DNA from: Geothrix edaphica
GTDB taxonomy: Bacteria; Acidobacteriota; Holophagae; Holophagales; Holophagaceae
NCBI RefSeq assembly: GCF_030268045.1
Contig: NZ_BSDC01000003.1
Coordinates: 62,001 to 126,000, forward strand
Length of the DNA: 64,000 nt
Direction of reading: 5' to 3'
Below, one piece after another: positions 910-60,833 of the stretch. The position numbers were made by a program, and so were the translations under genes. The first letter of the stretch is position 1, and the number at the start of each line of letters is the position of its first letter. The notes beneath the pieces were generated by a model. It did no database searches. It had not been told where the DNA came from and worked only from the letters and a program-made list of their open reading frames with translations.

Positions 910-1719
910 TTACATGAGGTGGCAGCTCAGGCAGAGCGCGGAACCCTGCGTGGTGACCCTGAGGAAAGGCGCCGTGCCGCCGGCGCTCCCGTAGTTGTGG
1001 GGGTCATGGCAGGAACCGCACTGGACCTTGCCCCCGGAGACGTTGGACGGATAGAGGCGCACGCCGACGAGTTCGGTGGGATGCCGCAGGGACTTGTTCA
1101 GGTCGTCGCGGTAGGTCATGGAGATGGGATGGACGCCTGTCAGGTCGTGCCCGATCGTGTTCGCCCCCTGCATCAGGCCCGTGCCGGGGTTCACGCCCCC
1201 GCCCTGAGCCTGCGAGTAGTCCCCATTCCCTCCGCCGGGAGGGGCCTCGTGGAGGGCTCCCATGGCCAGGGTCCCGTCGTGGCAGGAGAGACAGGCCAGG
1301 CTCGGCCCGAGGGGCTGTGGGTCCACAACCCCCTTCATGGTGGCGTTGGAGTACATCAGGAACTGCGTGGTGGTGGTCTCGTGGTTCCAGATGGGGATGG
1401 CTTGGTTGATGCCCGAGACGGCCTGGTGCGGGGTATGGCAGAAGGTGCAGGTCTCGGTGCTGTGGGTGACCTTGTAGGGCCCCGTGGCGCTGAGGTCGTG
1501 GGCCGTGCCGACCAGCCCGCGGACCGGGATCGCTCCCGCAGCGAGGGTGGGTTCCTGGAGGGCCGACACGGCCATCACCGCCAGCCTCGCCACCAGGGTG
1601 AGCGCCGCCATGCACGCCGTCGACCAGATGAGCTTCCGCTCGTTCGGGTCGTACCACCGCCGCCCCCGCCAGCGCAGCGAGAACTTTCGGCGGGTATAGG
1701 CTGGATGGCTCTTTCTCAT
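910..1719 (-). CDS. Tetraheme cytochrome c (paralog A)
   Basis: 269 residues. The ATG has a CCGAGG ribosome site about 8 bases upstream. An unusually long basic N-terminus (about 35 residues) precedes a hydrophobic segment ending VSALQEPTLAAG, so export is by signal peptide or anchor; the internal Met that begins MAALTLVARL is an alternative start. Four CXXCH motifs occur: CTFCH, CLSCH, CGSCH, CLSCH. Conserved blocks are GTAHDLS, IPIWN, SLACLSCHDG, HPISMTY and VQCGSCHDPHN...FLR...ALC. It shares all of these with two other tetraheme proteins in the window (9983-10708 and 28072-28725). It is the last gene of the porin operon and is separated by 173 bp from the spermidine-synthase-like gene. Role inferred: electron carrier or filament-type cytochrome. 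Confidence 0.88.
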   Translation of the reverse strand: MRKSHPAYTRRKFSLRWRGRRWYDPNERKLIWSTACMAALTLVARLAVMAVSALQEPTLAAGAIPVRGLVGTAHDLSATGPYKVTHSTETCTFCHTPHQAVSGINQAIPIWNHETTTTQFLMYSNATMKGVVDPQPLGPSLACLSCHDGTLAMGALHEAPPGGGNGDYSQAQGGGVNPGTGLMQGANTIGHDLTGVHPISMTYRDDLNKSLRHPTELVGVRLYPSNVSGGKVQCGSCHDPHNYGSAGGTAPFLRVTTQGSALCLSCHLM

Positions 1720-3495: not shown

Positions 3496-5127
3496 TCAGC
3501 GCACCACCGGGCTGTTCAGGTTCTCCGGGAAGGTCTTCACGGAAAGCCCGGCCTTGCCCTCGCCGTCCAGGTACCGCTTCACCACGGCGGCGCCCTCGAC
3601 CTTCACGAAGTCCTTCTGGACCTGCTCCAGGCAGTCCTTGAAGGGCAGCACCTCACCGGGCCTCCGCTCCAGCACCTTGAAGAGCATGGAACCCTCGGGA
3701 CTGGGCACGGGGCCGACGAGCGACCCCAGGGGCTGCTTCAGCATGGCCACCACGGCTTCCTTGGGCAGCACCTTCTGCAGGCCGGAGACCTCCAGCCAGC
3801 CTGCATCCCACTGGCCCGTGGATTCCTTGATGGCGTACTTGTCCACGAGCTGCTTCCAGGGCACTCCCTTCTGGGCCTCCCGCGCCGCCTGGTCCACCGT
3901 CTCAGGCAGGTCGGCCACCAGCAGGTAGACCTTCACCGCACCGATGGAGCGGAAGTGTTCGAGGTGCGCCTGATAGTGCGCGCTCAGTTCGGCCTCCTGC
4001 GGTTTGTAATCCTTCAGGAAGATCTGGGAGAACAGGTTGAAGGCCGCGGCCCGCTCCGAATCCCAGATGGCGGCCTTGATGCCGGGCTCCTTGGGCAGAC
4101 CCGCCTTCTCGGCTGCGAGGGTCAGCCGCAGGTCATCCGCCATGAGGTCAAGGAACTTCCCCTTGGTCTCGGGACCAAGGCCGTGGCTCGCCCCGCCCAC
4201 GTTCATGGCCTCGCCCATGAACAGCTTGAGGGCCTTCAGCGTGATCTCCTTGGAACCCACCTTCCCCGCCACACGCTTCTCGTCCCCCTCCACGGGAACG
4301 GTGGTGCGGTCGATGCTGAGCACGGCTCGGTCCGCCTTCAGCGGGTAGGTGGCCCGCAGCGGCGCCAACACCGCCGGGCGGCGCTGGGTCTGGTTCATTT
4401 CCTCGAGGCCCGCCAGGAGGGCGGCCTTGTTCTGTTCGAAATCCGCGTCCGTGGGCGCCTTGACCTCCCGGACCTGGGCCACGTGCCAACCGAATTCGCT
4501 CTGGAAGGGGCCGCGCAGTTCGCCCACCTTGGCGCCGAAGACCGGGTCCGCGAAGGCCTGGACCACCTGGTCCCGCTTGATCCAGCCCAGATTCCCGTGG
4601 TTGCTCGCGGTGGAAGGGTCGATGGAAAGGGCCGTGGCGACCTTCTCGAAGCCTTCCCCCTTCTGGATCCGGCCCAGGGCCGCTTTCGCCTCGCTCTCGG
4701 TCTTGCAGACCAGGTGCACCACGCGGCGCTGCTCGTTCGACGCCATGAAATGGGCCTTGGCTGCGGCTTCCGTGAGGGGCGGAGCCCCGGGCTGGCGGTC
4801 CAGGTAGGCCCTGCTCAGCACCGCCACCCGGTTCTGCACCTTGAATGCTTCCCAGTTTTCGCCCTCCAGCAGGCCCCGCCGCTCAGCCTGTTGCCAGGCG
4901 ACTTCGCGCCTCAGCAGGTCCTCCAGGGCCACAGCCGGAGTGGCGGCCGGGTGGTGCTCCAGGTAGTAGGTCCACTCGGGCTGCCCCACCCAGGCGCGTC
5001 CCACCTGCGCCACAGGATGGGTCGGCTTGTCGCAGCCAAAGGCCGCGACCAAGAGGATCAGCGCCCCGGCCCACAGCGGGCGGCGAGGGCGGGCGGTTTC
5101 CGGGTGCTGTTCCGAGGGTGTGCGCAT
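3496..5127 (-). CDS. PpiC/SurA-type peptidyl-prolyl isomerase lipoprotein
   Basis: 543 residues from an ATG preceded by CCAGGAG; longer upstream frames lack a signal. The N-terminus has a hydrophobic run and lipobox AAFGC (Cys32). A SurA-like N-terminal helical segment is followed by a parvulin domain at ~134-220 (VHLVCKTE, GNLGWI, FGAKVGELRGPFQSEFGWH). A second, degenerate parvulin-like domain near the C-terminus has KVYLLVADLPE, WDAGWLEVS and VGPVPSPEG. A paralog lies at 28.8 kb. PpiC chaperones help exported proteins fold; here the likely clients are the cytochromes or barrel encoded alongside. It is 61 bp after the octaheme-type gene. Confidence 0.88.
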   Translation of the reverse strand: MRTPSEQHPETARPRRPLWAGALILLVAAFGCDKPTHPVAQVGRAWVGQPEWTYYLEHHPAATPAVALEDLLRREVAWQQAERRGLLEGENWEAFKVQNRVAVLSRAYLDRQPGAPPLTEAAAKAHFMASNEQRRVVHLVCKTESEAKAALGRIQKGEGFEKVATALSIDPSTASNHGNLGWIKRDQVVQAFADPVFGAKVGELRGPFQSEFGWHVAQVREVKAPTDADFEQNKAALLAGLEEMNQTQRRPAVLAPLRATYPLKADRAVLSIDRTTVPVEGDEKRVAGKVGSKEITLKALKLFMGEAMNVGGASHGLGPETKGKFLDLMADDLRLTLAAEKAGLPKEPGIKAAIWDSERAAAFNLFSQIFLKDYKPQEAELSAHYQAHLEHFRSIGAVKVYLLVADLPETVDQAAREAQKGVPWKQLVDKYAIKESTGQWDAGWLEVSGLQKVLPKEAVVAMLKQPLGSLVGPVPSPEGSMLFKVLERRPGEVLPFKDCLEQVQKDFVKVEGAAVVKRYLDGEGKAGLSVKTFPENLNSPVVR

Positions 5128-5188
5128 GGGAGACTCCTGGTCGGGTGCCGGCCCCGGAAACGGCGCTGAAGGGGACACGGCGGAACGC

Positions 5189-6514
5189 TCAGTAGCGTGT
5201 CTGGACGTGATCGTAGCCATGGCAGGTGAGCGTGCAGGTGCCGTGGCCCACACCATTTCTACTAAATTCAACCGCGCCTACAGTGGAGCGGGTCACAACT
5301 GCGGTATCGAACTGGATGAGCGCGGGCTGGCTCATGGAGCCGTGCGCCGTGTGGCAGGTGGCGCAGGGCGTCGGCACGCCAAGCCCCGCCGGCGGCGCCA
5401 GCGGGCGGCCCGCCTGGATCTCCCGCACCGTGCGGAGTCCCTTGACGGGCGCCTTCAGAGATGAGGCCGTGGTGAACCCCAGGAGGTGCTCCCGGTGGAA
5501 GGGGAAGGACCGGTTGGATTCGATGGAACGCTGGTCGTGGCAGGTGTAGCACAGGTCGTTGGAGCGCGCCCCCAGGAGCCCTGCATCGCGTTCGTAGCCG
5601 TAGCTGGCCTTCAGGAGGGAGGGGAAGCGCGACACGTGGGGCCCGCGGAGCCCCGTGGGATCGGGGTTGGCATGGCACGAGGTGCAGTCCAGGGGATCCT
5701 GGTTAGGGCTGGTGCGGAGGCTCGGCAGGTCCATGCGGTCCGAGGCCTTGCGCCCCATGCGATGGCTGGAGGCTGCGCCCTTGCTGAAGAGCAGCCCCAC
5801 ATCCGCCTTCCCCTGTTCCAGCGGCGCAGCCTCGTTCCCCGCATGGCAGCCGAAGCAGACCTGGGAGGCGGAGGCCGGTTTGACGCCGCGCAGAAGCTGG
5901 CCCCTGGCGTCGAAGGCGAGGGCCCGCAGCTTCTTGGGCGTCCGCCCGTGGGGATCGTGGCAAGCCGAGCAGCCCGACCGCAAGACCACCCGCGTGGGCC
6001 CCGCACCTACCACGCGGGTATAGCGAGCGGCAAGACTGCCGGGCCTCTGATTCACATGATCGGAACCACCGGCCGGCACCAGCAGCCCCTCCTCCCCCTG
6101 GCGCGACAGCCCCAGGGAACCGGCGCCTGCGGGAACCAGGCCCACGGCCCGGCCCAGCGTCTGACCCAGCCCCGGGCCAGCGGCCAGCGACTTGGAGGCG
6201 CTGGCCGGCAGCGGGTTCATGTGACAGGCCAGGCAGGCGGCATCGATGGCACTGCGCCTGATGCGGGCGACCTCCTCCCGACTGGCGGGATGACGTGACG
6301 CGGCCATGGGGGAGTTGTGCTCAGCGTGGCAGCCGGCGCAGCCCCGGTGGGCCTCTGAGGGGGCCGTTGGCGGGGCGGCCGGCGAGGCCAGCGCAAGAAG
6401 GCCTGCCAACACAAAGAGGCCCAGGCCGCGGCTGACCGCAGCCCTCCAACGACCCCATCGCCCGAAGGCCCGAGGCACCTGGAGAGATCGGTCCTGCCGA
6501 AGTCCGTGTGGCAT
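5189..6514 (-). CDS. Multiheme cytochrome c with seven CXXCH and one CX3CH
   Basis: 441 residues. An N-terminal hydrophobic segment (LGLFVLAGLLALASPAAP) directs export. Haem motifs in order are CAGCH, CLACH, CSACH, CFGCH, CTSCH, CYTCH, CATCH and the atypical CTLTCH eleven residues before the end. The ATG overlaps the stop of the upstream barrel gene by one base (TGATG), so the two are almost certainly made together. By analogy with porin-cytochrome complexes, it is a candidate for the periplasmic cytochrome that plugs the barrel. No PpiC, NHL or OB domain is present. Confidence 0.85.
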   Translation of the reverse strand: MPHGLRQDRSLQVPRAFGRWGRWRAAVSRGLGLFVLAGLLALASPAAPPTAPSEAHRGCAGCHAEHNSPMAASRHPASREEVARIRRSAIDAACLACHMNPLPASASKSLAAGPGLGQTLGRAVGLVPAGAGSLGLSRQGEEGLLVPAGGSDHVNQRPGSLAARYTRVVGAGPTRVVLRSGCSACHDPHGRTPKKLRALAFDARGQLLRGVKPASASQVCFGCHAGNEAAPLEQGKADVGLLFSKGAASSHRMGRKASDRMDLPSLRTSPNQDPLDCTSCHANPDPTGLRGPHVSRFPSLLKASYGYERDAGLLGARSNDLCYTCHDQRSIESNRSFPFHREHLLGFTTASSLKAPVKGLRTVREIQAGRPLAPPAGLGVPTPCATCHTAHGSMSQPALIQFDTAVVTRSTVGAVEFSRNGVGHGTCTLTCHGYDHVQTRY

Positions 6515-8292
6515 CAACGCTGCCCAAAACGGTAGAGGGCGACGGTGTCGAAGGCCCGCAGGAGGTCGACCAGGAACTGGGTGTAGCGGATGCCGTCCTG
6601 CCGCCGCACCACCTGGACCGAGAACCGCACATCCAGCAGGCCGGAGTTCAGGTCCAGATGGGTGCCGACGGTGGTGATGGCCGGGCTCTGGGAGGCCTGG
6701 TAGCGGGTCCAGAGGATGCCGTAGGGGAATCGACCCACACTGGAATTGAAGTTCAGCGTATAGAAGGAGGACGAGCTGGCCCGGTCGCCCATAACCAGGT
6801 AGGCCGGAAGGTCTGCCTGGGCCGTGGAGGTCATGGACTGCTCCGAGCGCCCAAAGCCGACCGAGCCGGAGAGCGTGGACCGCCCGAACAGCTCCGAGGC
6901 GTTCAGAGCCAGGTTCCGCTCCTCCCGGTGCACCCCCGCGAGGCCCAAGCCGTCGTCCCGGCGGAGGTCCCCCATGGTGAAGATGCGCAGGCCCTCCGCC
7001 ATCCTCAGGTCGCCGGTGATCCGCACCCAGTCCATCTTCCCGCCCTGCTCGTTCCGGATGTGGAACAGCTCGCTGGAGAAGCCGAGCTTGCCACCCTGGA
7101 GGATCCGCCGCCGCTGCATCTCCTGGGCCAGCTCCGAGGGCACGTAGCCCGGCGCATAGTCGTCCTGCACGCGACGCTGGAAGGCCTGGTCCGACAGGTA
7201 GAAGAGAGCCCGCTTCACCAGCGTGGGGACATCGCCCCCCTCGGAGATCCCCAGGTGGAAGGAGCGGGTGATCCCTTCGGCAGTGGAGGTCCCTGCGCCG
7301 GTGCTGAGGCCGTTGCTGTGCACCTGGGCGATGCTCATGTCCGCGGACACCCGCCACTGGGCCGTCAGCGCATAGGAGCCCCCCAGGGTCAGGGCCCCCT
7401 GCCGCGAACCGGGGAATCCTGCCGAAGCGGATTGATCGCTGGCCGAGAAGGCGCCGAAGGTGGAGAAACGTTCCACCGAGTAGATCAGCGACTGGGCAGC
7501 AGAATTCGACGCGGCCCGCCCCGCGGGGCTCTCGGATTCGTTGCGCCCCACATTGGTCTGGGTGATCCAGGCGCCCCACTGGCCCATCAGGTCGGCGGAC
7601 AGGCCTGTGGTGTGGGAGTCGGCCATGCCCTCGGCCGTCACGCTGGTGCGGAAGAACCAGGTGGGAGCCAACTTCGTCTCGAGGCTGCCGTACAAGAAAT
7701 CGTCCTTGAAGGCCGGACCACTACCCCGGGTGGCGAACTCCTGGTGGGTGGCCGTGAGATGGACCCGGGTGCCGCCGTACTGCTGGTTGGCGGTCAGGGT
7801 GCTGAGGGACCACGACTCGCCCTCCCCTGCCTGGCTGGCCGTTCCGTGCCGCAGGGTGATCTGCAGATCCTGGACCGTGCGCCCGCGATAGTTCAGGGCT
7901 GCACCGATGACGTCGTTATTGACCCGGGAGTAGCCCGCAAGGCTCGGCGACTGGGCGTGGACATAGTCCAGGCTCAGGTGGAAGGGGCGGTAGGGGAACA
8001 GGGTGGCCCGGAGGCCGTAGGTGTTGAGCCCCAGGGCGGACTGGGTTCCCGCCTCGCTGGAGAAGCGCTGGTAGTCCAAAGCTCCTGTCAGGGCCAGCGT
8101 GCCCAGCCGGTAGTCGATGACGGGCATGGACAGAGTGAAGTCGTAGTTGGCCTGCGTCATGTCGCTGGCCGACTGGTTCGACTGCCAGCGGGTGTAGTGG
8201 AGCTTGAAGGCCTGATTGAGCAGGAGGGCATCCTGGGCATGCCCACCCACCGCGGCGCTTGCCAGGGCTAAGCTCAGCAGAGGGACCTTCAA
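6514..8292 (-). CDS. Outer-membrane beta-barrel of a porin-cytochrome conduit
   Basis: 592 residues. I chose the TTG at 8292 because it gives a clean signal peptide (KVPLLSLALASAAVGGHAQ). Its leader also matches the tetraheme gene at 10.7 kb almost base for base: C-tract, then CGGAGCAAC, then start, then AAG. An in-frame ATG at 8340 would add 16 residues. The mature protein is a string of alternating polar/aromatic amphipathic strands with no haem motif or helical domain, and ends in a strand finishing YRFGQR. MtrB/PioB-type barrels have this size and build, but I see no family-specific motif. It is first in the operon with the octaheme-type cytochrome, PpiC, spermidine-synthase-like and tetraheme genes. 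Confidence 0.75.
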   Translation of the reverse strand: MKVPLLSLALASAAVGGHAQDALLLNQAFKLHYTRWQSNQSASDMTQANYDFTLSMPVIDYRLGTLALTGALDYQRFSSEAGTQSALGLNTYGLRATLFPYRPFHLSLDYVHAQSPSLAGYSRVNNDVIGAALNYRGRTVQDLQITLRHGTASQAGEGESWSLSTLTANQQYGGTRVHLTATHQEFATRGSGPAFKDDFLYGSLETKLAPTWFFRTSVTAEGMADSHTTGLSADLMGQWGAWITQTNVGRNESESPAGRAASNSAAQSLIYSVERFSTFGAFSASDQSASAGFPGSRQGALTLGGSYALTAQWRVSADMSIAQVHSNGLSTGAGTSTAEGITRSFHLGISEGGDVPTLVKRALFYLSDQAFQRRVQDDYAPGYVPSELAQEMQRRRILQGGKLGFSSELFHIRNEQGGKMDWVRITGDLRMAEGLRIFTMGDLRRDDGLGLAGVHREERNLALNASELFGRSTLSGSVGFGRSEQSMTSTAQADLPAYLVMGDRASSSSFYTLNFNSSVGRFPYGILWTRYQASQSPAITTVGTHLDLNSGLLDVRFSVQVVRRQDGIRYTQFLVDLLRAFDTVALYRFGQR

Positions 8293-9982: not shown

Positions 9983-10708
9983 CTACTTCTTGTGGCAGGC
10001 CACGCAGAGGGCGGAGCCGGTGTTGTTGTCGATGCGGAGGAAGGGCGTGCCGCCGAAACCGGTCTTGGGGGACAGGGACCAGTTGTGCACGTCGTGGCAG
10101 GAGGCGCACTGCACCTTGTTGTTGAAGAGGGGCAGGCCGGCGGCGACCACGGTGGCCTTGGGCTGCAGGCCGAGGTCGGCCACTTCGTCATAGGTGATGG
10201 CGATGGGGTGGTCGTTGGTGAAGTCGCCGCCGGCGCCGACCACGTGGTTGATGAGCTTGCCGGTCGCGTCGATGCTGGTGCTGGCGGTGTAGGCGGTGGT
10301 GGTGCCGTAGGGGGCGTTGATGATGGACCCGATGGCGATGCTGCCGTCGTGGCAGGAGATGCAGGCCAGGCTCACGCCGGTGGGGGCGGAGTCAACGACG
10401 CCCTTGAGCTGGGAGGCGTCGCTCTTGGCGTTGGTCTGGTTGTACATCGTGAAGGTGGTGGTCGCCGTGTTGTTGTGGTTCCACAGGGGCACGAGCTGGG
10501 TGTAGGTGGGATCGGCCTTGGCGTGGTCGCCCATGTGGGGGGCGTGGCAGTAGACGCAGGTCTGGGTGTAGACCGTGGTGGACCCGGCGCGGGTCATGAC
10601 GGCCTTGGCGGACAGGTCGTGCATGGTGCCCTTGACGCCCGAGGCGGGCGAGGCGGCGGTCAGAGCCATGCTGGCGCCGGCGACGAGGAGGAGAAGAAGG
10701 CTCTTCAT
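9983..10708 (-). CDS. Tetraheme cytochrome c (paralog B)
   Basis: 241 residues. The signal peptide is MKSLLLLLVAGASMALTAASPASG. Four haem motifs occur: CVYCH, CISCH, CASCH, CVACH. The shared family blocks GTMHDLSA, VPLWNH, GVSLACISCHDG, NDHPIAITYD and VQCASCHDVHNW...TPFLR are present. The size and pattern match the small tetraheme group that, as I recall, includes the filament-forming OmcE of Geobacter; this needs a search. It is a single-gene unit with its own strong upstream module (CRP-like box, 11-bp repeats, C-tract) and a CGGAG ribosome site. That suggests high, regulated expression. Confidence 0.9.
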   Translation of the reverse strand: MKSLLLLLVAGASMALTAASPASGVKGTMHDLSAKAVMTRAGSTTVYTQTCVYCHAPHMGDHAKADPTYTQLVPLWNHNNTATTTFTMYNQTNAKSDASQLKGVVDSAPTGVSLACISCHDGSIAIGSIINAPYGTTTAYTASTSIDATGKLINHVVGAGGDFTNDHPIAITYDEVADLGLQPKATVVAAGLPLFNNKVQCASCHDVHNWSLSPKTGFGGTPFLRIDNNTGSALCVACHKK

Positions 10709-22056: not shown

Positions 22057-25035
22057 CTACCAGGATTCGGAAGGAGAAACCGCGGCGTTGTGGTAGCACG
22101 AGGTCTGGCAGCTGCCGTCCTGGGAGTAGCCCGTGGCCGTGGTGGGCTTCTTGAAGCCGGTGATCTTCATGTTGCTCACGGTGTTGTTGTAGGCGTACCG
22201 GGCGGGCATGGTGGTGCCAGCACCGCTGTAGCCCATCAGGCGCGACATCTTGCTGCCGTGGGGGATTACGATGTGGCAGTTCCAGCACTGGTACCCGTTG
22301 TGGTTGCCCGTGTTGTGCGCCGTGTTGTTGCTCAGTGTCAGCGTATGGCAGTTGGTGCACCAGCTGGTGCTGGCACTGCTGAGGGTGATGTTGGGCCAGT
22401 TGGCGGGGTTGGTGCCGCGCAGCATGAACTGGGCGGCGGAGCCGTGGGGACCCTGGGCGGCGGGCGAGGCCGCATCGGTGTTGTGGCAGTCGGAGCACAT
22501 CATGGTCTGGGTGCCCAGGTTGGTGGCCCAGGGGGCCTTCATGGTGGTGGCGGCCAGGGCTTTGGGTGCGGCACTGCCTGAGTAGTTGTTCAGCCCGGTC
22601 ACCACGGGGTGCCCCGAGCGGTTGGCAGGGTTGAACTCCTGGGCCAGATCCGTCTCCTGCAGATAGATCGGGCCGGCCAGCAGGTAGCGGTAGACGCCCG
22701 TGGCACCGGTGAAATTGCCGCTAAGGGTCAGGTGTGTGGCGTCTGTCACGGCGGTGATGGTGTAGGTGCCCGTCACGCCATTGGCCTGGATGGTGCTGCC
22801 CACCAGGGTCGAGGTCCAGGCGGTGCCGTAGCCGGTGACGGCGTTGCTCCCGTTCGTGAAGCTGGCGCCTGGGTGGATGTAGAAATCCTGGGGCGTGGTG
22901 GAGGTGGTGGCCGTGACGATGGTCAGGCTGGTGGCGGAAGGTACGGCGGTGATCCGGTAGGCCGTGGTGTTGCCGCTGGTCATGGCGAAGAACTGGTTGA
23001 TCAGGGCGCTGGTCCAGGTGGTACCGGAGCCGGTCACGGTCGTTGTGGCGGTGATGGCGGCGGCATCGCGGGTCTCGTAGGCAACCGAGGCCGTGGTGGT
23101 CTGGCCGAAGGAACTGGAGATGGTCAGCGAGGTGGTGCTGGCCACGGCGGTGACCCGGTAGTTGGTGCTGGTGGAGCCCGTGGGACGGATGTACTGGCCG
23201 ACCATGTTGGCCGTGGTCCAGCTGGTCCCGGTTCCCGTGACTGTGGTGCTGGCGTTGGTGAATTTTGCAGTGCCCGTGCCCGCCACCCAGGGTTGGGTGG
23301 TACCCGAGACCAGCGTCAGGGGGCTGTTCCCGCCGGATGTGATGCCGTTGGGCGGCGTGCTGCCGAAGGAGTAGCTGGTGTGGCACTTGAAGCAGACCTG
23401 GTATTCGAATTCGGCGCCGCTGGCGGCCACGGCGGGCGACCCGCCGGCGATCTTGGTGAAGTTCCCGGAGGAGGTGGCGGCCCACAGGCCCAAGCCGGAG
23501 TAGTTGATAGCCACGCCATCCACGCCCCGCAGGGCGTACATGTTGTTCAGCACGCCACCGGCGGCGGCACGAATGCGGTTCCGGTTGAGATCGGCTGTGG
23601 TGGCGTAGGTGTGCACGCCGGCCGTGGCCATGTGGGGGTTGTGGCAGTCCGCGCAGCCCACCAGACGGCCGGTGTTGTTCTCGACGGGATGGTGGATGGT
23701 CTTGGTGATCTGGGTGCGGACGTCCTTGGTCGAGGGGCCGTTGCTGTCGTGGCAGGTCTCGCAGAGGTTGTCCTGCTCGGCGCCGAGGGCATTGGCGTAC
23801 TTGCCGCCCGGGTTGTTGGCATCGGGCCAGCCGTGGGGGGTGTGGCAGTTCTTGCAGGCGCCCCGATCCGTCGCCAGGGTGTAGGCGGGGTAGGTGCTGC
23901 CGCCGTACCCATCACCCGGCCAGAGGATGCCGGTGGTGGGGTTGGTGTGCGTGTTGGCAGTGGTGGTATCGGCCAGGGTGTGGCAGTCCGTGCAGAGGGC
24001 CGTGGAATTGCTCACCCGCAGCAGCATGCCCGCAGGCGTGGTGGTAGTGGGGGCGCCGTGGATGTCATGGCAGGTGAGGCACTCGACGTTGCCCAGGGTG
24101 TTGAGGACCAGCGAGGCCGAGGGCGTTTTCGTGTTGGGGGCGGACGCCAGGTTCACATGCACGGGATGCGAGGTGCCGCCCTTGCCCACGTTGCGGGCGG
24201 CGTGGCAGTCACCGCAGAGGGCGCCGCCATTGTTGGCCACCCGCTGGAAGTGGCGGTTGTTGGTGGTGCCCGCGGTGTAGGTGGGGGATGCGGCGGGGTC
24301 GAAGGGGGCCAGGGCCTGCAGGTGCTGGTCATGGCAGGTCGAGCACATGATCTTGCCGCTCTCGAGGCGGCTGGTCATGGCGCCGTTGGCCGGGGCACGG
24401 AGGTCGGCGCGCACGTAGACGTAGAAGATGTCGTTGAGGTTGAAGGTGCCGGTGCTGGAGAAGGCCAGGGAGACGCCGGTGGCACCGAGGGGCGTGGCGG
24501 CGGTACTGGTGGGGACACCGGTGGTGACGGTGCCGAAGTTGGTGGTGCCGGGCGTGGTCATGCTCCAGTCGAATTTGGCCGCCCCCGTGGCTCCGGCCGT
24601 GGAGATCTTGATCTGGATGGTGGAAGCGTAGGCGCCGGTGTAGGCGCCGGACGGTGTGAGGGTGCCCGTGGAGGTGTTGGGCGAGCCCTTACTGAGGCGG
24701 CCCTGGGACCCGGAATCCCAACGGTGGGAGGTGCCGCCGGCGGTGGCGCCGGCGAGGCCGGCGGGCACGGCCTGGATCGAGTTGGGCATGGCCCTGTTGG
24801 TGGCCGAACCGCCCGAGACATGGCAACTCTGGCAGAGGTTGGCGTTGCCGGCCACGGTGGTGAGGCTGGCGCCGCTGGCCCCGCCCATGACCTTGTGGCA
24901 GGTGGTGCAGTAGTTGGAGGATCCGTAGGCGTTCGTCGTGGCGATGTTGTGCGGCGGATCCGCCGCGAACAGACAGGTGTGCGCGGCGAGCAGCAGACCC
25001 AGGATGGAGGCGGAGCGGGACCTGAGGCGGTTCAC
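22057..25035 (-). CDS. Large secreted cytochrome c, 13 CXXCH, with three inserted beta repeats
   Basis: 992 residues from a GTG overlapping the NHL stop. Signal peptide ends HTCLFA. Haem motifs: CTTCH, CQSCH, CSTCH, CGDCH, CLTCH, CTDCH, CKNCH, CETCH, CADCH, CFKCH, then CSDCH, CTNCH, CWNCH. The C-terminus has an atypical CQTSCYH. A beta-rich insert lies between haems 2 and 3. Three tandem ~65-residue repeats lie between haems 10 and 11, each with VTGxGTxWT, a TAV motif and SLTI/HLTL. Ser/Thr/Asn richness is typical of outer-surface proteins. A surface-exposed terminal reductase or conductive element is inferred. Confidence 0.88.
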   Translation of the reverse strand: MNRLRSRSASILGLLLAAHTCLFAADPPHNIATTNAYGSSNYCTTCHKVMGGASGASLTTVAGNANLCQSCHVSGGSATNRAMPNSIQAVPAGLAGATAGGTSHRWDSGSQGRLSKGSPNTSTGTLTPSGAYTGAYASTIQIKISTAGATGAAKFDWSMTTPGTTNFGTVTTGVPTSTAATPLGATGVSLAFSSTGTFNLNDIFYVYVRADLRAPANGAMTSRLESGKIMCSTCHDQHLQALAPFDPAASPTYTAGTTNNRHFQRVANNGGALCGDCHAARNVGKGGTSHPVHVNLASAPNTKTPSASLVLNTLGNVECLTCHDIHGAPTTTTPAGMLLRVSNSTALCTDCHTLADTTTANTHTNPTTGILWPGDGYGGSTYPAYTLATDRGACKNCHTPHGWPDANNPGGKYANALGAEQDNLCETCHDSNGPSTKDVRTQITKTIHHPVENNTGRLVGCADCHNPHMATAGVHTYATTADLNRNRIRAAAGGVLNNMYALRGVDGVAINYSGLGLWAATSSGNFTKIAGGSPAVAASGAEFEYQVCFKCHTSYSFGSTPPNGITSGGNSPLTLVSGTTQPWVAGTGTAKFTNASTTVTGTGTSWTTANMVGQYIRPTGSTSTNYRVTAVASTTSLTISSSFGQTTTASVAYETRDAAAITATTTVTGSGTTWTSALINQFFAMTSGNTTAYRITAVPSATSLTIVTATTSTTPQDFYIHPGASFTNGSNAVTGYGTAWTSTLVGSTIQANGVTGTYTITAVTDATHLTLSGNFTGATGVYRYLLAGPIYLQETDLAQEFNPANRSGHPVVTGLNNYSGSAAPKALAATTMKAPWATNLGTQTMMCSDCHNTDAASPAAQGPHGSAAQFMLRGTNPANWPNITLSSASTSWCTNCHTLTLSNNTAHNTGNHNGYQCWNCHIVIPHGSKMSRLMGYSGAGTTMPARYAYNNTVSNMKITGFKKPTTATGYSQDGSCQTSCYHNAAVSPSESW

Positions 25036-26435
25036 TGGACACCTCCAGCGGGCAGGACGCGGACGTCGGCGATGCTTTCGAAGGAGCGCCCGTCAGTGAG
25101 GCGCCCGGAGACCACCAGGAAGGCCTCGCCATCGGGCATGGTGGCCAGGAGGCGGTTGTGGTCGAACCAGGCCCGGAACTCGAAGGTGCCGTCGCCGTCG
25201 AAATCCCCGATGTAGGCGCCGGGCACGACCGCCGCCCGCAGGCCGTTGGCGGTGATGGAGCCCACCTGGATCTGCGAGAGGGTCAGGCCGGGGACCTTGA
25301 GGAGGACGGCCACGAGACCCGGCCGCTGGTTGCGGTTGGCGGCGGCGCGGGCGAGCCCCCTGGCGTGCTGGGAGGCCTGGCCGCCCTCCCATCGGAAGCG
25401 ATCCGGCGTGGGTGGTTCCTGGAGGTCCGCTTCCGGGCCGCCATCGACCTCGGGGGCCGCCTTCCGCTGCCACTCGGCCGGCGTCACGGTGGCGTCTGCG
25501 AAGACGATGGGCGCGGGATCGGTGTAGGCGTCCAGGCCGAAGACTTCGATCCGGGCATTGCCCGCGGTCGCCACGAAAAGCCGGTTGTTGCGGTCCAGGA
25601 CCAGGCTGGCGGGACCGCTGAGCTGGCCGGGGCCAGTCCCGAACGCCCCGATGCTGGCGATGGAGGTGCCCGCGCCATCGACCACCTTCACCACCCCTCG
25701 ATAGGAATCCGCCAGGTAGATCCGGCCCTGGGCGTCGGCCAGCAGACCCTGAACGCGCCCGTATGCCGTGTTGTTGCCGAGCATGCCCACGGTGCCTCCG
25801 AACTTGCGGAGGAAGGTCCCGGCAAGGGTGAAGACCTGGACCCGTTCGTTGCCCTGGTCGGACACGAAGACCTCGCCCTGGGGCGTGACGACGAGCCCCG
25901 TGGGGAAGCTGAACTGGCCGTCCAGCCTGCCGGGGCCGCCGAACTGCCTCGCCAGCTGGTTGTCCGGCCCGTAGACCTTCACCAGGCCGGCCGTGCTGTC
26001 CACCACGAAGACCGTGCCGTCGGCGGTGATCTGGAGGTGGTTGGGCATCTGGAACTCGCCCTCGCCCTGCCCCAGGTACCCGGCGGGAACCCATTCGGAG
26101 GTGAAGATCGCGACGCGGCCCTTTCCGGCTTCGCAGACGAAGATCCGGCCCGCCCCGTCCACGGCCACGCCGAGGGGCCGGCTAAGCCCGCGCTTGACGG
26201 CCAGCAGGTGGCCCGATTCATCGCGCACGGTGATGAGGCCCAGCCGGGGATCGGCGACGAAGAGGCGCCCCGCCCCGTCCGTGGCCAGGCGCACGGGCTC
26301 CCGGAAGCCCTGGGCATAGGCGCGCAAGGGCACGGCCACGGGGACCGGCACCTGGGCGGACAGGACCTGGGCGCCGCAGGCGATCACCGCCATGATCCGC
26401 AGCACGCCTCGGAGGGAAGTCAGTGTGCCGTTCAT
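25032..26435 (-). CDS. Secreted NHL-repeat beta-propeller protein (paralog 2)
   Basis: 467 residues. Signal peptide ending GAQVLSAQ. About six NHL blades: FREPVRLATDGAGRLFVADP, RPLGVAVDGAGRIFVCEAG, FPTGLVVTPQGEVFVSDQGNERVQVF, VQGLLADAQGRIYLADS. A C-terminal domain of about 110 residues (VKVP-like segment GLTLSQIQVGSITANGL, DFDGDGTFEFRAWFD, LVVSGRLTDGRSFESIADVRV) has a calcium-binding-like DxDxDG loop. It opens the operon and overlaps the 13-haem gene by GTGA. The homopolymer of 33 G/C stands 30 bases before its ATG. Confidence 0.85.
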   Translation of the reverse strand: MNGTLTSLRGVLRIMAVIACGAQVLSAQVPVPVAVPLRAYAQGFREPVRLATDGAGRLFVADPRLGLITVRDESGHLLAVKRGLSRPLGVAVDGAGRIFVCEAGKGRVAIFTSEWVPAGYLGQGEGEFQMPNHLQITADGTVFVVDSTAGLVKVYGPDNQLARQFGGPGRLDGQFSFPTGLVVTPQGEVFVSDQGNERVQVFTLAGTFLRKFGGTVGMLGNNTAYGRVQGLLADAQGRIYLADSYRGVVKVVDGAGTSIASIGAFGTGPGQLSGPASLVLDRNNRLFVATAGNARIEVFGLDAYTDPAPIVFADATVTPAEWQRKAAPEVDGGPEADLQEPPTPDRFRWEGGQASQHARGLARAAANRNQRPGLVAVLLKVPGLTLSQIQVGSITANGLRAAVVPGAYIGDFDGDGTFEFRAWFDHNRLLATMPDGEAFLVVSGRLTDGRSFESIADVRVLPAGGVQ

Positions 26436-26641: not shown

Positions 26642-26785
26642 TTTTATAGGTAAAAACACGGGGTCTTGATGGACATCACAAGTATCCGCCCCGGAGTATC
26701 CGAGCATGGGTCCTACACTGGGTTCCCTGGCGCGGGGGCTTGTGCCCACCCGATCCGCGGATCCAGCCCGCCCGAGGAAGCCGCC

Positions 26786-27862
26786 ATGCCCACCTGCTCC
26801 TTCCGCCTGCTGCTTGCCGCCGCCCTGTTTGCGGGATGGGGTGGAGGCTCCCTGGGCGCCCAGACCGCCCCGCCCCCCCCACCCGCGGAGGACACGGCGG
26901 AGGTCCTGGCCTGGCCCTCGCCGCCAGCCGCCCCCCGCATCAAGTGGGTGGCGGAGTACCGCAACGCCTTCGATGTGGGCGCCAAGAAGAAGCGCACCTT
27001 CCTGGACCGCCTGGCGGGCAAGGCCGAGGAGGTGATCTGGCTCGAACGCCCCCTGAGCGTGGCAGTGGACGAGCAGGGCCTGATCTTCGTCGGGGATTTC
27101 ACCCGGGGCATCATCGTCATGGATCCCGTCAACAAGGCCATCCGGGCCTTCTCGGCGGTGAACGGCGCCGTGCTCCCCACGCCGACCGGCCTGGCGGTGG
27201 ACTCCAAGCTCGTGTTCGCCACCAGCTCCAACCTGAACCAGGTCCTCGTCTTCGACAAGAAGGGCCGCCAGCTCAGCGCATTGAGCAAGGCGGACGGCAT
27301 CAACCGGCCCGTGGGCATCGCCGTGGACGAAGCCCGGGACCTCGTGGTCCTCGTCAACAGCCAGGAGCACGCCGTGCGGCTCTACACGCGGACGCTTCAA
27401 CTCATCAAGGTCGTCGGCGAGCGCGGGAGCGAGGACGGGCAGTTCAACATGCCCTCCTACGCCTGCATCATTCCTGGCGTGGGCTTCGCCGTGGCGGACA
27501 CCGGCAACTTCCGCATCCAGATCTTCGACTTCGAGGGGAAGTTCATCCGCGCCTTCGGCAAGGTGGGGAACATGCCGGGCGACTTCGCGCGCCCCAAGGG
27601 CATCGGTGTGGACCCTGACGGCCATCTCTATGTCGCGGATGGGATCTTCAACAATTTCCAGATCTTCGACCAGGAGGGCCACCTCCTCCTCTTCGTGGGG
27701 CAGGTCGGCGTGAGGCGCGGGCAGTTCCAGGTGCCTACCGGCCTCGCCACCGACACCAAGGGCGGCGTCTTCGTCGTGGATCAGATCAATGCGCGGATCC
27801 AGAAATTCCAATACCTCCCCGAGGAGAAAACCGCTCCGCCTGTCCCGGCCAAGCAGCCCTAG
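26786..27862 (+). CDS. Secreted NHL-repeat beta-propeller protein (paralog 3)
   Basis: 358 residues. ATG with GAGGAAG upstream; signal peptide FRLLLAAALFAGWGGGSLGAQ. The mature start, APRIKWVAEYRNAFDVGAKK, and the blades (PLSVAVDEQGLIFVGDFTRG, RPVGIAVDEARDLVVLVN, GVGFAVADTGNFRIQIFD, RPKGIGVDPDGHLYVADG) make it a clear paralog of the NHL protein at 11-12 kb, differing mainly in the Pro-rich N-terminal linker and tail. It precedes tetraheme C by 209 bp. Same inferred role: scaffold or assembly factor for a cytochrome structure. Confidence 0.87.
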   Translation: MPTCSFRLLLAAALFAGWGGGSLGAQTAPPPPPAEDTAEVLAWPSPPAAPRIKWVAEYRNAFDVGAKKKRTFLDRLAGKAEEVIWLERPLSVAVDEQGLIFVGDFTRGIIVMDPVNKAIRAFSAVNGAVLPTPTGLAVDSKLVFATSSNLNQVLVFDKKGRQLSALSKADGINRPVGIAVDEARDLVVLVNSQEHAVRLYTRTLQLIKVVGERGSEDGQFNMPSYACIIPGVGFAVADTGNFRIQIFDFEGKFIRAFGKVGNMPGDFARPKGIGVDPDGHLYVADGIFNNFQIFDQEGHLLLFVGQVGVRRGQFQVPTGLATDTKGGVFVVDQINARIQKFQYLPEEKTAPPVPAKQP

Positions 27863-28071: not shown

Positions 28072-28725
28072 ATGAAGTCCCGCGTTCTCCTCCTCCTGGT
28101 CGCCACCTCCCTGAGCCTGTCCGCGACCATTGCCGGCACGAAGCACGACCTCAGCTCCTCAGGCCCCGGCGTCAAGACCAACATCACCCAGAAGTGCGTG
28201 TTCTGCCACACGCCGCACGGCTCCGCCACCGGCACGGCCCAGATCATCCCCCTGTGGAACAAGACCACCACGGTGACCACCGGCTTCACCATGTATTCCA
28301 GTGGCACCATCTCCGGCACCGTGGACACCACGCCCACCGGCGCCTCCATGGCCTGCTTCACCTGCCATGACGGCACCCAGGCTGTGGGCAACATGATCAA
28401 CCTGCCCAACGGCGTAGCCAGCGTCACCTACACCGCCGGTGGCGGCGTGAATGCGACCGGTTTCATTGCATCGGGTGTGAACCTGCTGGGCAAGGACCTG
28501 TCCAACGACCACCCGGTGTCCATCACCTACACGCAGAACCTCGACTCTGGCCTGGTGAACCCCACCAGCTTCGCGCCCAACACCGTCCAGCTGTTCCCCA
28601 CCAACGCCAATGGATCGAAGGTGCAGTGCGCCTCCTGCCACCAGGTGCACGACAACACCAACCCGCCTTTCCTGCGGGTGAGCATGACCAACTCGGCCCT
28701 CTGCACCACCTGCCACATCAAGTAG
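28072..28725 (+). CDS. Tetraheme cytochrome c (paralog C)
   Basis: 217 residues, the shortest of the three. Signal peptide MKSRVLLLLVATSLSLSATIA; mature start GTKHDLSSSGP. Haem motifs are CVFCH, CFTCH, CASCH, CTTCH. Blocks IPLWN, TGASMACFTCHDG, NDHPVSITYTQ, VQCASCHQVHDNTNPPFLR and ALCTTCHIK define the family. It has its own promoter module and is closed by a strong terminator. It is possibly a filament-type or diffusible carrier cytochrome, by analogy with the OmcE-like group. Confidence 0.9.
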   Translation: MKSRVLLLLVATSLSLSATIAGTKHDLSSSGPGVKTNITQKCVFCHTPHGSATGTAQIIPLWNKTTTVTTGFTMYSSGTISGTVDTTPTGASMACFTCHDGTQAVGNMINLPNGVASVTYTAGGGVNATGFIASGVNLLGKDLSNDHPVSITYTQNLDSGLVNPTSFAPNTVQLFPTNANGSKVQCASCHQVHDNTNPPFLRVSMTNSALCTTCHIK

Positions 28726-28822: not shown

Positions 28823-30373
28823 ATGCCCGTTCCGCCCACCCTGCGAAGCCCGGTGGCACTCCTGCTCCTCCTGGCCGGTGGCCCAGCCCTGGAGGCCAAG
28901 GCGCCTCTCCGGGCCGCCGCGAAGGAACCGGCACCGGCCCCCGGCCTGCTGCGCAAAGCCCTGCTCGAGGTCCATCCGGGCCTTGCCCCCGAAGCCCTGG
29001 AGGCCATGCTGCGGCGCCTGGAGACGGCGTGGTCCCGCGCCCAGGCCCTGGGCCTCCTGACCGGAGTCGAGTGGCAGGAGTCCGTCCGCGAAGGCCGGTG
29101 GGAGATCCTCGGGAGGGCCTTTCTGGACCGCCGCCCCGGCCACGTCCCCATGACCGAGGAGCAGGTCCGGGCGGCCTTCCTCGCCCAGGGGGACCAGCGC
29201 CGGATCTCGCACATCCTCTGTCCGACGGAAGCGGAAGCCGCCGCCGCCCTGGCGCGGATCAACCGGGGCGAGGCCTTCGCGAAGGTGGCCGCCGACGTCT
29301 CCCGGGACCCGGGCTCGACTCGGAGCGGCGGCGACCTCGGCTGGGTGCGGCAGAAGGAACTGGTGCCGGCCTTCGGTGAGCCCGTGTTTGCCGCCGCCCC
29401 CGGCACCCTGGTGGGCCCCATCCACTCGGAGTTCGGCTGGCACCTGGCCAGGACCTCGGAGGTGCGCCGACCGAACCCCGCGGACTTCGAGGCGCAGCGC
29501 GGGATCCTGCTGAAGCAGGCGGCCGAGGCCCAGCTGGCCGTGAAGCGGGAGGCCGTGATCGAAGGGCTTCGGAAGCGCTACCCCCTCCAGGCCGACCTGG
29601 ACGTGCTCGACGCCGACCGGTCCACGGAGCCCCTGCCCGGCGACGAGGCGCGCATCGCTGGCCGCGTCGCCGGTGCCTCCATCTCCCTGAAGACCCTGAA
29701 GCGCTACTTGGCGGACCGGCTCAAGGCCGCGGGCCAGAGCCATTCCCTTGGAGCCTCCACCAAGGCGCGGTTCATGGAGGACTTCGCAGACCGGGCCCGG
29801 TTGGCCGCGGCCGCGCAGAAGCAGGGCCTGGCGCGTCTGCCGGAGGTCCGGGCCGCCCTATGGGTGGACCAGCGCGAACGGGCGCGCGAAGCCTTCGCCA
29901 CCTCCCACCTCGCCGCCGTGAAGGTGGCCGAGGTCGATCTCCAGGGCTTGTACGAGCGCGCCCCGGACCGCTTCCGCCCAGTGGGGGCGCTCCGCCTGCA
30001 GGTCCTGGTGGCCGACAGCAAGGCGCGCGTGGACGAGGCGCTGGACCAGGTCCGGAAGGGGATGCCCTGGCGCGTGGCGGCGGGACGGTACGGCAGCGCT
30101 GAGGCCACCGGGGACCCGGAACCCGGCTGGGTCGAGGTGGAGGCCCTCCGCCGGATGGTGCCCCCCACGCTGCTGCAGCCCCTCCTGACCGGCCCTCTGG
30201 GTCAGCCCGTGGGACCGATGCTCGGGGCGGACGGATTCATGATCTTCAACGCCCTCGAGCGCCGGCCGGGACCGGTGCCGCCCCTGGCCGAGTGCCGGGA
30301 TGCCGTCCGGGCCGAGTACCTCCGGGAGCGTGGCCAGGCCCTGGTGGATCAGGAGCTGGACCGTCGGCCTTGA
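28823..30373 (+). CDS. PpiC/SurA-type peptidyl-prolyl isomerase
   Basis: 516 residues. Signal peptide (VALLLLLAGGPALEAKA) without a clear lipobox, unlike its paralog at 3.5-5.1 kb. Parvulin domain at ~127-215 (ISHILCPTEAEAAAAL, GGDLGWVRQKE, GTLVGPIHSEFGWH), then a long helical region (SLGASTKARFMEDFADRARL) and a second parvulin-like segment (LRLQVLVADS, EPGWVEVEAL, VGPMLGADGFMIFNALE). The same SHxLG.xTKxxF motif occurs in the paralog. It lies between tetraheme C and the 42-haem gene. A chaperone for local secreted cytochromes is likely. Confidence 0.87.
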   Translation: MPVPPTLRSPVALLLLLAGGPALEAKAPLRAAAKEPAPAPGLLRKALLEVHPGLAPEALEAMLRRLETAWSRAQALGLLTGVEWQESVREGRWEILGRAFLDRRPGHVPMTEEQVRAAFLAQGDQRRISHILCPTEAEAAAALARINRGEAFAKVAADVSRDPGSTRSGGDLGWVRQKELVPAFGEPVFAAAPGTLVGPIHSEFGWHLARTSEVRRPNPADFEAQRGILLKQAAEAQLAVKREAVIEGLRKRYPLQADLDVLDADRSTEPLPGDEARIAGRVAGASISLKTLKRYLADRLKAAGQSHSLGASTKARFMEDFADRARLAAAAQKQGLARLPEVRAALWVDQRERAREAFATSHLAAVKVAEVDLQGLYERAPDRFRPVGALRLQVLVADSKARVDEALDQVRKGMPWRVAAGRYGSAEATGDPEPGWVEVEALRRMVPPTLLQPLLTGPLGQPVGPMLGADGFMIFNALERRPGPVPPLAECRDAVRAEYLRERGQALVDQELDRRP

Positions 30374-30385
30374 GGCAGGAGCGCC

Positions 30386-33300
30386 CTACTTGTGGCAGGC
30401 TTCGCAGTCCGTGACGGACAGGAGCTTCTCGTTCTTGGAGAAGTGGGGCTGGTGGCAGGACAGGCAGGTCAGGGGTTTCCCCGTCGCCTTGACGATCCGG
30501 TCCGAACAGGGGTGGTTGACGGACGGGTGATCCATCCGCTGGGCCCGGTGGCAGCCGATGCAGATGGCCTGGATGTTGCCGCGGGGGAAGCCCTTGGCCT
30601 CCCCGCCGTGGGGTGTGTGGCAGAGGGCACACTGGCCCTCCATGAACGGCCGGTGCTTGGACATCGACTTCCTGGCCTCCTCGCGCAGCGACTCGTGGCA
30701 CCGGAGGCAGAGCTCGCTTGGATTGCCCATCAGGAGGGTCGGCAGCCTGGAGGCGTGGGGGGCGTGGCAGAGGGTGCATTCCCCGTTGGCCACTGGCGAA
30801 TGGGGGAAGGGCATCTTCGCAGCGCTGGCGACGCCCGGGTGGCAGCCGAAGCAGAGGCCGGGTTGGGCGGCCCGGGTCGCGAAGGGCCTGGCGGAGGTCG
30901 ACGGGGCGTGGCAAGTCTCGCAGCTGCCCTTCGCCACTGGCGCGTGGGCGGTCGGGCGCAGCATGCCCTGGAGGTTGGAGCCATGGGGATCGTGGCAGGT
31001 GAGGCAGTCCCCGGGCGGGACGGGATAGCCCCGGTGGGCCTTCCCCATGTCCTTCATCTCGTGGCAGGTGGTGCAGAGCCGCTCCACGGGCCTGAGCAGC
31101 CCCTTGGGCTGGCTGCCCGCATGGGCCACGTGGCAGGCACCGCAGTCGCCAGAGGCGGCGGGCCGATGGGGATGTTTCGCCTGCAGCGCAGGGCGGAGTT
31201 TTTCGTGGCAGGACAGGCAGAGATCCAGGGGCTTCTCCCGCAGGAGGTGCTTCCCTTCGGTGTAGTGCGCCAGGTGGCATTCCCGGCAGCTTCCCTCCAC
31301 ATAGGGTTTGTGCGCCCAGCCCTCCTTCGGCGGTTGGGGCTGTCCGTGGCAGGTGAAGCAAAGCTGGTTCCCCGGGGCTTCCAGCAGGGCCTCGTTTCGG
31401 GAGGCGTGAGGCTGGTGGCAACTGAGGCACTCGCCGGCCTGGAAGGGCTGGTGCTGGTGGACGGCGCCCTTGGGTTGCACACCCGGATGGCAGCCCAGGC
31501 AAAGCTGGGTCACGGGACGGACGAAGGCCATCCGGCCCTCGGAATTCCGCCCGGGGACCGGGGGCTTGTGGCAGATCGGGCACCCCTCGGGGCCGACATG
31601 GCCCTTGACCAGGCTTGCCGCGAAGGGGGCGTGCACCTTCTTCTGGAGGAGGCCCGCTTTCTGGGAGGCGTGGGGCTCATGGCAGCCGAGGCAGTCCACC
31701 TTGCCCAACGCCGCGCCGAGGTGTTTCTTCCGCAGGCCCGAGTCGTCGAGGTCGTGGCAGCCCGAGCAGGTGTCCTGGAGGGTCGAGGCCTTGAGCAGGG
31801 CCCCGCCGGTGCCGGAGTGCGGATCGTGGCAGCCGCTGCAGGCGCCTTCCTTCACGGGCTGATGCACCACCTGGAACCGGTCCTGCCGCCGGTGGCAGGC
31901 ATAGCACCCTTCGGGCTGGTCGCGCTTCAGGTGCTTCGCCTTGGTCCCCCCGTGGGGGTCATGGCAGGCGAGGCAGCCGTTCTTCCCGATGGCCGGCTTG
32001 TGGATGGTGTCTCGGTCCAGGAGCTTGGCGTGACAGCCGGTGCAGAGCTTCTCGGACTCGTCTTTCAGCAGCTTGCGGAGGGGGCCCCCGTGGGCCGCAT
32101 GGCAGGCGCTGCAGTTCCCCTCCTTCACAGGGCCGTGCAGCCTGGGCCTCGCCAGGATCTTCTTGTGACAGCCGCCGCAGGCCTCCGCCTGCCCGCCGCG
32201 GATGAGGTGGGCTGAGCCGCTCGCGTGGGGCACGTGGCAGGTGAAGCACTGCCCCTTCTTCACGGGGTCGTGCGACACGGGCCCCTTGGACACGCCCGTG
32301 TGGCAGCCGGCGCAGAGGGCCTGCTTCGCCTGCCGGAGGACCGGCGGCGTCGCGCCGGCGTGGGCTTCATGGCAGGACAGGCATTCGCCCTTCACCACCG
32401 GGGCGTGCTGGCTTGCGCCCTTGGCCAGGTCCGTGTGGCAGGTGAGGCAGAGCTTGGTAGCGGGTGCGATGAGGAGGTGCTTGTCCGGGGATTCATGGGG
32501 CCTGTGGCAGGCGAGACAGGCACCCTTGCGGAAGGGCGTGTGCTGGGAGGCGCCCTTGGCGAGCGCCCCGTGGCAGGTGAGGCAGAGCTCCTGCGGGGCC
32601 GAGGTCAGGAGGCCCTTCCCGTCAGCGGCGTGGGGCCGGTGGCAGGTCAGGCAGGCGCCGGCCTGGACCGGCTGGTGCTGGGTGCCCGGGCCTGGAACCG
32701 AGCGGTGGCAGTCCTGACAGAGGCCGGGCACGGGCTTCACCAGCTGGACGGCCTTCCCTTCTGCAGGCCGGTGGCAGTCCGAACAGCGCCCCGCCTTGAA
32801 CGGCGCGTGGGCCTGGTCGCGCACCAGACCCTTGGCCGCGGAGCCGTGCGGGTTGTGGCAAGTGACGCAGGCCCCGGCCTGCAGGGGAAAGCCCGCATGC
32901 GAGGCAGGGGAAGGGCTGGCGCCGTGGCAGCTCTCGCACTGGCCCGGCTGACCTGGCTTCAGCAGGTAGCGGGTGGGGGAGGGATGCGGCGCATGGCAGG
33001 CCATGCAGTCCTCGGCGGCGGCATGGGGATGGGCGCTGTCCATGCGCGCCCTGACCTCGGCATGGCAGGAGAGGCAGAGTTCCTGGGCCGGCTTCCGCAG
33101 CAGGCCACTCCGGCCGGAATCGTGGGCATCATGGCAGGCTCCGCACCCGCCCCGGCCCTCGAAGCGATGGGCCGCCCGCTCCCCCGGGGCCGGTGCCAGA
33201 GACTTGTGGCAGAGCACGCACAGGGGCCGTCCGCCCCCGGCGTGGAGGATGTTCATGTTGGCTTCGCCATGGGGGCGATGGCACCACTGGCACCGGCCCT

Positions 33301-33457
33301 CGCGCAGCGGCTTGTGGGCAGTGGCCGATGAGGCCCGGCTGGCCACTTTCGGGTGGCAGTCCTGGCAGGTGGCAGGCGCCGCCAGCAGCACCGATGGAAG
33401 GAGCGCCAGAGCCGTGACCAACAGGCAGCGGCGGATATACCGGATGCGGTCGGTCAT
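30386..33457 (-). CDS. 42-haem cytochrome c
   Basis: 1023 residues. ATG with CCAGGA site; signal peptide CLLVTALALLPSVLLAAP. I count 42 CXXCH motifs, one per ~24 residues, from CQDCH near residue 31 to CEACH four residues before the end. They form about twenty imperfect ~50-residue doubled-CXXCH units of the type CLxCHxPHxS...LCxxCHxxL...H.P...GxC. Almost no haem-free domain exists; the longest spacers surround CPICH (haem 26). The last ~130 residues match the truncated cytochrome at the window start. It is probably an extended secreted or periplasm-spanning electron wire. GT9 lies 77 bp upstream on the same strand. Confidence 0.93.
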   Translation of the reverse strand: MTDRIRYIRRCLLVTALALLPSVLLAAPATCQDCHPKVASRASSATAHKPLREGRCQWCHRPHGEANMNILHAGGGRPLCVLCHKSLAPAPGERAAHRFEGRGGCGACHDAHDSGRSGLLRKPAQELCLSCHAEVRARMDSAHPHAAAEDCMACHAPHPSPTRYLLKPGQPGQCESCHGASPSPASHAGFPLQAGACVTCHNPHGSAAKGLVRDQAHAPFKAGRCSDCHRPAEGKAVQLVKPVPGLCQDCHRSVPGPGTQHQPVQAGACLTCHRPHAADGKGLLTSAPQELCLTCHGALAKGASQHTPFRKGACLACHRPHESPDKHLLIAPATKLCLTCHTDLAKGASQHAPVVKGECLSCHEAHAGATPPVLRQAKQALCAGCHTGVSKGPVSHDPVKKGQCFTCHVPHASGSAHLIRGGQAEACGGCHKKILARPRLHGPVKEGNCSACHAAHGGPLRKLLKDESEKLCTGCHAKLLDRDTIHKPAIGKNGCLACHDPHGGTKAKHLKRDQPEGCYACHRRQDRFQVVHQPVKEGACSGCHDPHSGTGGALLKASTLQDTCSGCHDLDDSGLRKKHLGAALGKVDCLGCHEPHASQKAGLLQKKVHAPFAASLVKGHVGPEGCPICHKPPVPGRNSEGRMAFVRPVTQLCLGCHPGVQPKGAVHQHQPFQAGECLSCHQPHASRNEALLEAPGNQLCFTCHGQPQPPKEGWAHKPYVEGSCRECHLAHYTEGKHLLREKPLDLCLSCHEKLRPALQAKHPHRPAASGDCGACHVAHAGSQPKGLLRPVERLCTTCHEMKDMGKAHRGYPVPPGDCLTCHDPHGSNLQGMLRPTAHAPVAKGSCETCHAPSTSARPFATRAAQPGLCFGCHPGVASAAKMPFPHSPVANGECTLCHAPHASRLPTLLMGNPSELCLRCHESLREEARKSMSKHRPFMEGQCALCHTPHGGEAKGFPRGNIQAICIGCHRAQRMDHPSVNHPCSDRIVKATGKPLTCLSCHQPHFSKNEKLLSVTDCEACHK

Positions 33458-33534
33458 GGCGTCCTGGTTCCGAGGGCCCGGCCATCGAGACGCGGGCATT
33501 CTCTATCCTATCGTCCCCATTGGACGGGCCAAGG

Positions 33535-60782: not shown

Positions 60783-60833
60783 TCCATGCTCCGGAATGCT
60801 GCGCATTCCGGAGATAGAAAATAAGGAAATGGC

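Follow-up and report, generated by a model that had tools for sequence, protein, structure and literature searches.

A 42-haem cytochrome of Geothrix that probably unites an OscI/OscJ-type pair, and its possible role beside OmcE-type nanowires

The 42-haem gene and its neighbours

The window analysed here is a stretch of 64 000 nucleotides of Geothrix edaphica (contig NZ_BSDC01000003.1, positions 62 001 to 126 000). It contains the gene of a 42-haem cytochrome, P0001, among the features listed in Table 1. The gene is convergent with a prolyl isomerase gene, beyond which lie an OmcE-like gene, two NHL genes and a 13-haem gene, and this order was kept in six orthologous loci. The 13-haem cytochrome has long low-complexity stretches rich in threonine and serine. 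Among the neighbours of P0001, the subunit genes encode OmcE-like tetrahaem proteins and not OmcS-like hexahaem proteins. All three OmcE-like genes found in the genome are located between two 42-haem paralogs, in one stretch of 28 kb. The second paralog lies upstream, ~30 kb away; it also has 42 motifs and is 52% identical to P0001. A 7-haem gene and a barrel gene are part of the sister cluster in the window, and in most orthologous loci they are found inside the 42-haem cluster. The barrel matches outer-membrane barrels, MtrB among them, and together with the neighbouring 7-haem cytochrome it possibly represents a new type of porin-cytochrome conduit.

Table 1. Features in the window (positions count from its first nucleotide; 7TFS is the structure of the OmcE filament)
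Feature	Position	Strand	Remarks
C-terminal end of second 42-haem paralog	1..401	plus	whole gene: contig C3, about 59375-62401
Second OmcE-like tetrahaem protein	913..1707	minus	7TFS, E 4e-24
Second PpiC-type prolyl isomerase	3496..5271	minus	
7-haem cytochrome	5189..6466	minus	beside barrel gene
Outer-membrane beta-barrel	6517..8292	minus	592 aa; 28 strands predicted; no Pfam family
Third OmcE-like tetrahaem protein	9983..10708	minus	
13-haem cytochrome	22057..25035	minus	992 aa; syntenic in orthologous loci
NHL beta-propeller protein	25032..26435	minus	
NHL beta-propeller protein	26666..27862	plus	
OmcE-like tetrahaem nanowire subunit	28072..28725	plus	217 aa; PDB 7TFS, E 4e-35
PpiC-type peptidyl-prolyl isomerase	28823..30373	plus	516 aa; OscH-like role proposed
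42-haem cytochrome (P0001)	30386..33457	minus	1023 aa; 42 CXXCH; stop included
16-haem module, haems 27-42	30389..31501	minus	residues 653-1023; equivalent of separate OscJ-type protein
Junction/linker, haems 26-27	31502..31567	minus	residues 631-652; no 16-haem-protein signal peptide left
26-haem module, haems 1-26	31568..33379	minus	residues 27-630; equivalent of separate OscI-type protein
Probable Sec signal peptide	33380..33457	minus	residues 1-26; inferred from sequence; ortholog N-termini align

An earlier note on this DNA had counted 42 CXXCH motifs in 1023 residues, about one per 24, and this count was exact for the minus-strand ORF (23.7 residues per haem). The calculated mass of the mature protein is about 105.6 kDa without haems and about 131.5 kDa with them. 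A possible alternative start codon of the ORF (ATG at 33499) is present upstream, but the start codons of the orthologs coincide with the methionine of the 1023-residue protein. The motifs contain 84 of the 86 cysteines, and 2000 shuffled controls had a mean of 0.6 and a maximum of 5 CXXCH. Motif spacing ranges from 20 to 37 residues and is mostly 22-25; the widest spacing occurs solely at haems 25-26-27 (37 and 27 residues). Using Pfam, we found 20 doubled-CXXCH stretches (E 1e-201) and nothing besides these and related cytochrome families, which agrees with the proposed lack of catalytic domains. The claim that the protein is built of doubled-CXXCH units had to be modified: in the ligand pattern, 19 pairs are accompanied by four haems that stand alone (9, 26, 35 and 42). 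The 42 proximal and 45 conserved distal histidines are sufficient for bis-His ligation at every haem.

The 42-haem protein is real and not an assembly artefact. The repeats within the gene have diverged at the DNA level (best match ~82% over 44 nt), which makes a collapse or expansion during assembly unlikely. This possibility, named in the earlier note as a way in which the finding could fail, was rejected on the basis of the lack of near-identical DNA repeats together with the conservation of the homologs. The closest relatives of the gene are found in Geothrix and other Holophagaceae (the host genome has 3.16 Mb). Seven other genomes of the genus contain 42-haem homologs, and named species with such homologs include G. 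fermentans, G. terrae, G. paludis and G. fuzhouensis. The complete homologs found in Holophagaceae/Geothrix all had 42 motifs, apart from one with 43. Across 10 homologs from several genomes, 41 of the 42 motif columns were identical, the exception being haem 26.

Separate 26-haem and 16-haem proteins and the fused form

In four unrelated MAGs (a Desulfuromonas, a deltaproteobacterial, another acidobacterial and an Eisenbacteria MAG), neighbouring genes encode one protein with 26 motifs and another with 16. By visual inspection, each of these separate proteins carries its own export signal. A 26-haem homolog is encoded by 24 of the 141 genomes of the order to which a Geobacter MAG belongs, and all 24 homologs have exactly 26 motifs. 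The gene after the 26-haem gene in Geobacterales has 16 motifs wherever it is complete, except for one with 15; at L104:7101-8504 (minus strand), the 16-haem protein has just 15 CXXCH.

Published work on Geobacter sulfurreducens identifies GSU2495 as the 26-haem OscI and GSU2494 as OscJ, both listed as periplasmic. It describes GSU2500-GSU2493 as a 'nanowire secretion' block and osc as an OmcS-companion cluster. The Geobacterales block with the 26+16 pair has eight genes, matching this published block. An osc-type block containing the pair, next to genes for OmcS-like hexahaem proteins (PDB 6ef8, E 7e-127), was present in all 13 longer Geobacterales loci (L098-L110) and at L028, an acidobacterial locus. 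The acidobacterial MAG (L028:9935-23181) has a whole osc-like cluster, with OmcS-like, OscD-H, 26-haem, 16-haem and NHL genes. The separate proteins are probably the counterparts of GSU2495 and GSU2494, judging from the number of their haems, the arrangement of the genes and the OmcS-like proteins encoded next to them.

To compare the register of the fused and the separate proteins, we compared haem environments after masking the residues of the CXXCH motifs. The best offset of the fused proteins was 0 against the 26-haem proteins and 26 against the 16-haem proteins. In the junction alignment, the 26-haem protein stops just past haem 26. The fused proteins lack the signal peptide seen in the separate 16-haem protein. 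The best single colinear match of the 16-haem profile was in the C-terminal half of all fused proteins but one. The self-comparison of haem environments peaked at a lag of 26 haems, which marks haems 27-42 as an old copy, paralogous to haems 1-16. In the global alignment A2, the 16-haem proteins had been aligned to haems 1-16; this placement is explained by the internal duplication and is therefore no evidence against the C-terminal match. When the HMM scores of the 16-haem profile were added up, the longer 26-haem halves scored higher, an effect of the repeats.

We conclude that P0001 is almost certainly a fusion of an OscI/OscJ-type pair. The split form is spread over several phyla; the fused one is confined to Holophagaceae-like sequences. 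Judging from this distribution, the fused state is likely derived from split 26-haem and 16-haem genes.

The earlier note had suggested that a spacer-rich zone around haem 26 is a hinge between two wire halves. The place is indeed special, being the fusion junction. The long spacer is confined to P0001 and its sister L014, with ordinary spacing in the other orthologs; a hinge at this position is thus not supported, and a conserved hinge was rejected. In P0001 and L014, the old haem-26 site has been lost and a new CXXCH is present ten residues further on, and all other orthologs have retained the old site. The homolog L015 (L015:10259-13324), sister to P0001 and L014, has both sites and hence 43 CXXCH. 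It is an apparent intermediate in the replacement of a haem site. The simplest account of the sequences would be a gain followed by a loss, bringing the count back to 42.

Structure and proposed role

The AlphaFold model of P0001, which contains no haems, was weak (pLDDT 58.9, pTM 0.34), and the misplacement in alignment A2 may have contributed to this. A Foldseek search of the PDB with this low-confidence model gave a sole match, the haem wire MtrA (P0001 residues 185-421; VIA Z 10.7 over 220 residues). The NCBIfam model TIGR03508 (DmsE decahaem) matched nine stretches of P0001, with a total of 391 bits against a cutoff of 192. In a PDB search by sequence, matches were limited to chains of the MtrA, MtrC and small-cytochrome types and did not include the solved filament subunits OmcS, OmcE (7TFS) and OmcZ. 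The haem density, the sufficient bis-His ligands and MtrA as the only fold match are in line with the molecular wire predicted earlier, and the assignment of P0001 as a putative haem wire is well supported.

A very high haem density and conserved bis-His ligands would also be expected of a periplasmic electron store (capacitor), whose 42 haems hold electrons in the absence of an acceptor and have no defined filament path. Such a store would fit the finding that no porin directly adjoins P0001 in the host genome. However, deep divergence has left the order of the haems and their number of 42 unchanged, and both are tied to nanowire loci. Since the length of a store should be free to vary, we consider this explanation unlikely.

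We regard as somewhat less likely still that P0001 is a PCC3-type wire in the outer membrane or outside the cell, reaching the surface through a porin. In the PCC3 set, a porin is encoded together with giant cytochromes, extracellular and periplasmic, and with an inner-membrane protein of five helices. PCC3 cytochromes are very haem-rich (medians 34 and 21, up to 63 named) with a low residue-to-haem ratio, and the 28-strand barrel and the 7-haem cytochrome of the same region, clustered with the 42-haem gene in most orthologs, could be taken as the conduit. However, the barrel gene is partnered with the 7-haem gene and not with the 42-haem gene, no inner-membrane or extracellular PCC3 partners were recognised in the neighbouring genes that were examined, and the periplasmic listing of OscI and OscJ in Geobacter also speaks against this location.

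An assembly factor that helps nanowire subunits to acquire their haems, to fold or to be exported, its own haems lying off the main electron path, would suit the adjoining prolyl isomerase and NHL genes and the link, drawn in the Geobacter literature, of osc genes to OmcS folding, secretion and morphology, but it is improbable, as the conserved residues of P0001 are those of a haem wire and it has no other domain.

The genes next to P0001 point to nanowires as its context. In the genus, all eight genomes with a 42-haem gene also have OmcE-like genes, and one further genome, which is 72% complete, has OmcE-like genes and no 42-haem gene (P ~2e-7, from a hypergeometric count that ignores the relatedness of the genomes). 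P0001 probably functions with OmcE-type nanowires, and the OmcE-like subunit encoded next door is its likely partner.

Overall, we lean towards a fused 42-haem, MtrA-like wire in the periplasm that charges OmcE-type nanowires. P0001 would be secreted into the periplasm, a location inferred from its signal peptide and the Geobacter annotation, and fold as a bis-His MtrA-like wire. Its electrons would come from carriers in the inner membrane or from small ones in the periplasm, and it would hand them over where an OmcE-type nanowire has its base, at the outer membrane. The fusion would hold the 26-haem and 16-haem pieces at a ratio of 1:1, end to end. If P0001 is straight and has the haem spacing of MtrA (10 haems in about 100 Å), its length would be ~35-40 nm, enough for crossing the periplasm. 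That it does span the periplasm and charge the nanowires, with electrons flowing along the proposed route, has in our estimate an even chance. The constant number of 42 haems, kept through the replacement of a haem site, suggests that length may matter, as it would for a wire over a fixed gap.

More tentatively, a 42-haem envelope wire, either fused or as a 26+16 pair, could be a general feeder of unrelated nanowires, OmcS-type in Geobacterales and OmcE-type in Geothrix. The same giant wire would then be tied to two filament types without mutual sequence similarity, and the fusion would show directly that OscI and OscJ work end to end as one wire. From the fusion, one would expect the two unfused Geobacter proteins to bind to one another, always in the same order. 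A review of 2025 (PMC12307469) states that the anchoring of cytochrome nanowires and the entry of electrons into them are open questions.

Comparison with known systems

In the searched literature, we found no paper naming a 42-haem cytochrome of Geothrix. The fusion, the constant 42 haems and the partnership with an OmcE-type filament appear to be unreported; the kind of protein itself is known. The assumption that a close characterised homolog is lacking is not entirely correct, as the 26-haem part corresponds to the OscI (GSU2495) of a known nanowire cluster. A GSU2494 mutant is reported as wild type, and Geobacter may therefore be able to do without the 16-haem piece.

Adjacent pairs of 13-haem genes, often after genes for 9-10-haem proteins, were observed in MAGs of Phycisphaerales/Phycisphaerae (L038, L039, L041, L043, L044). 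They represent another modular giant-wire system.

With the PCC3 cytochromes of iron oxidisers, P0001 shares tens of haems, about 22-24 residues per haem and a repeat-built sequence. It differs in the gene partners seen near it and in a haem number fixed at 42, which in PCC3 is variable, as the two medians show. The MtrA/DmsE decahaem family is similar by the above-cutoff score of TIGR03508 and by the Foldseek match to MtrA, but P0001 has four times the haems and no directly adjoining MtrB-type porin. The OmcE of the nanowire (7TFS) is a tetrahaem filament subunit, whereas P0001 has 42 haems and, as described above, no PDB sequence match to OmcE.

Using Geobacterales alignments, whose sensitivity was limited, we detected neither of the channel-like proteins OscE and OscG in the host genome. 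The P0001 locus was accordingly not classed as an osc cluster; only its giant cytochrome was regarded as a homolog of the two osc cytochromes. As in the osc cluster, prolyl isomerase and beta-propeller genes are located near the giant cytochrome gene, but the partner filament of the osc cluster is OmcS-like and the likely partner at the P0001 locus is OmcE-like. P0001 resembles OscI and OscJ in having 26 and then 16 haems in matching register with the Geobacterales homologs, and in the doubled CXXCH pattern. Unlike the two genes of Geobacter, it is encoded in Geothrix by a single fused gene.
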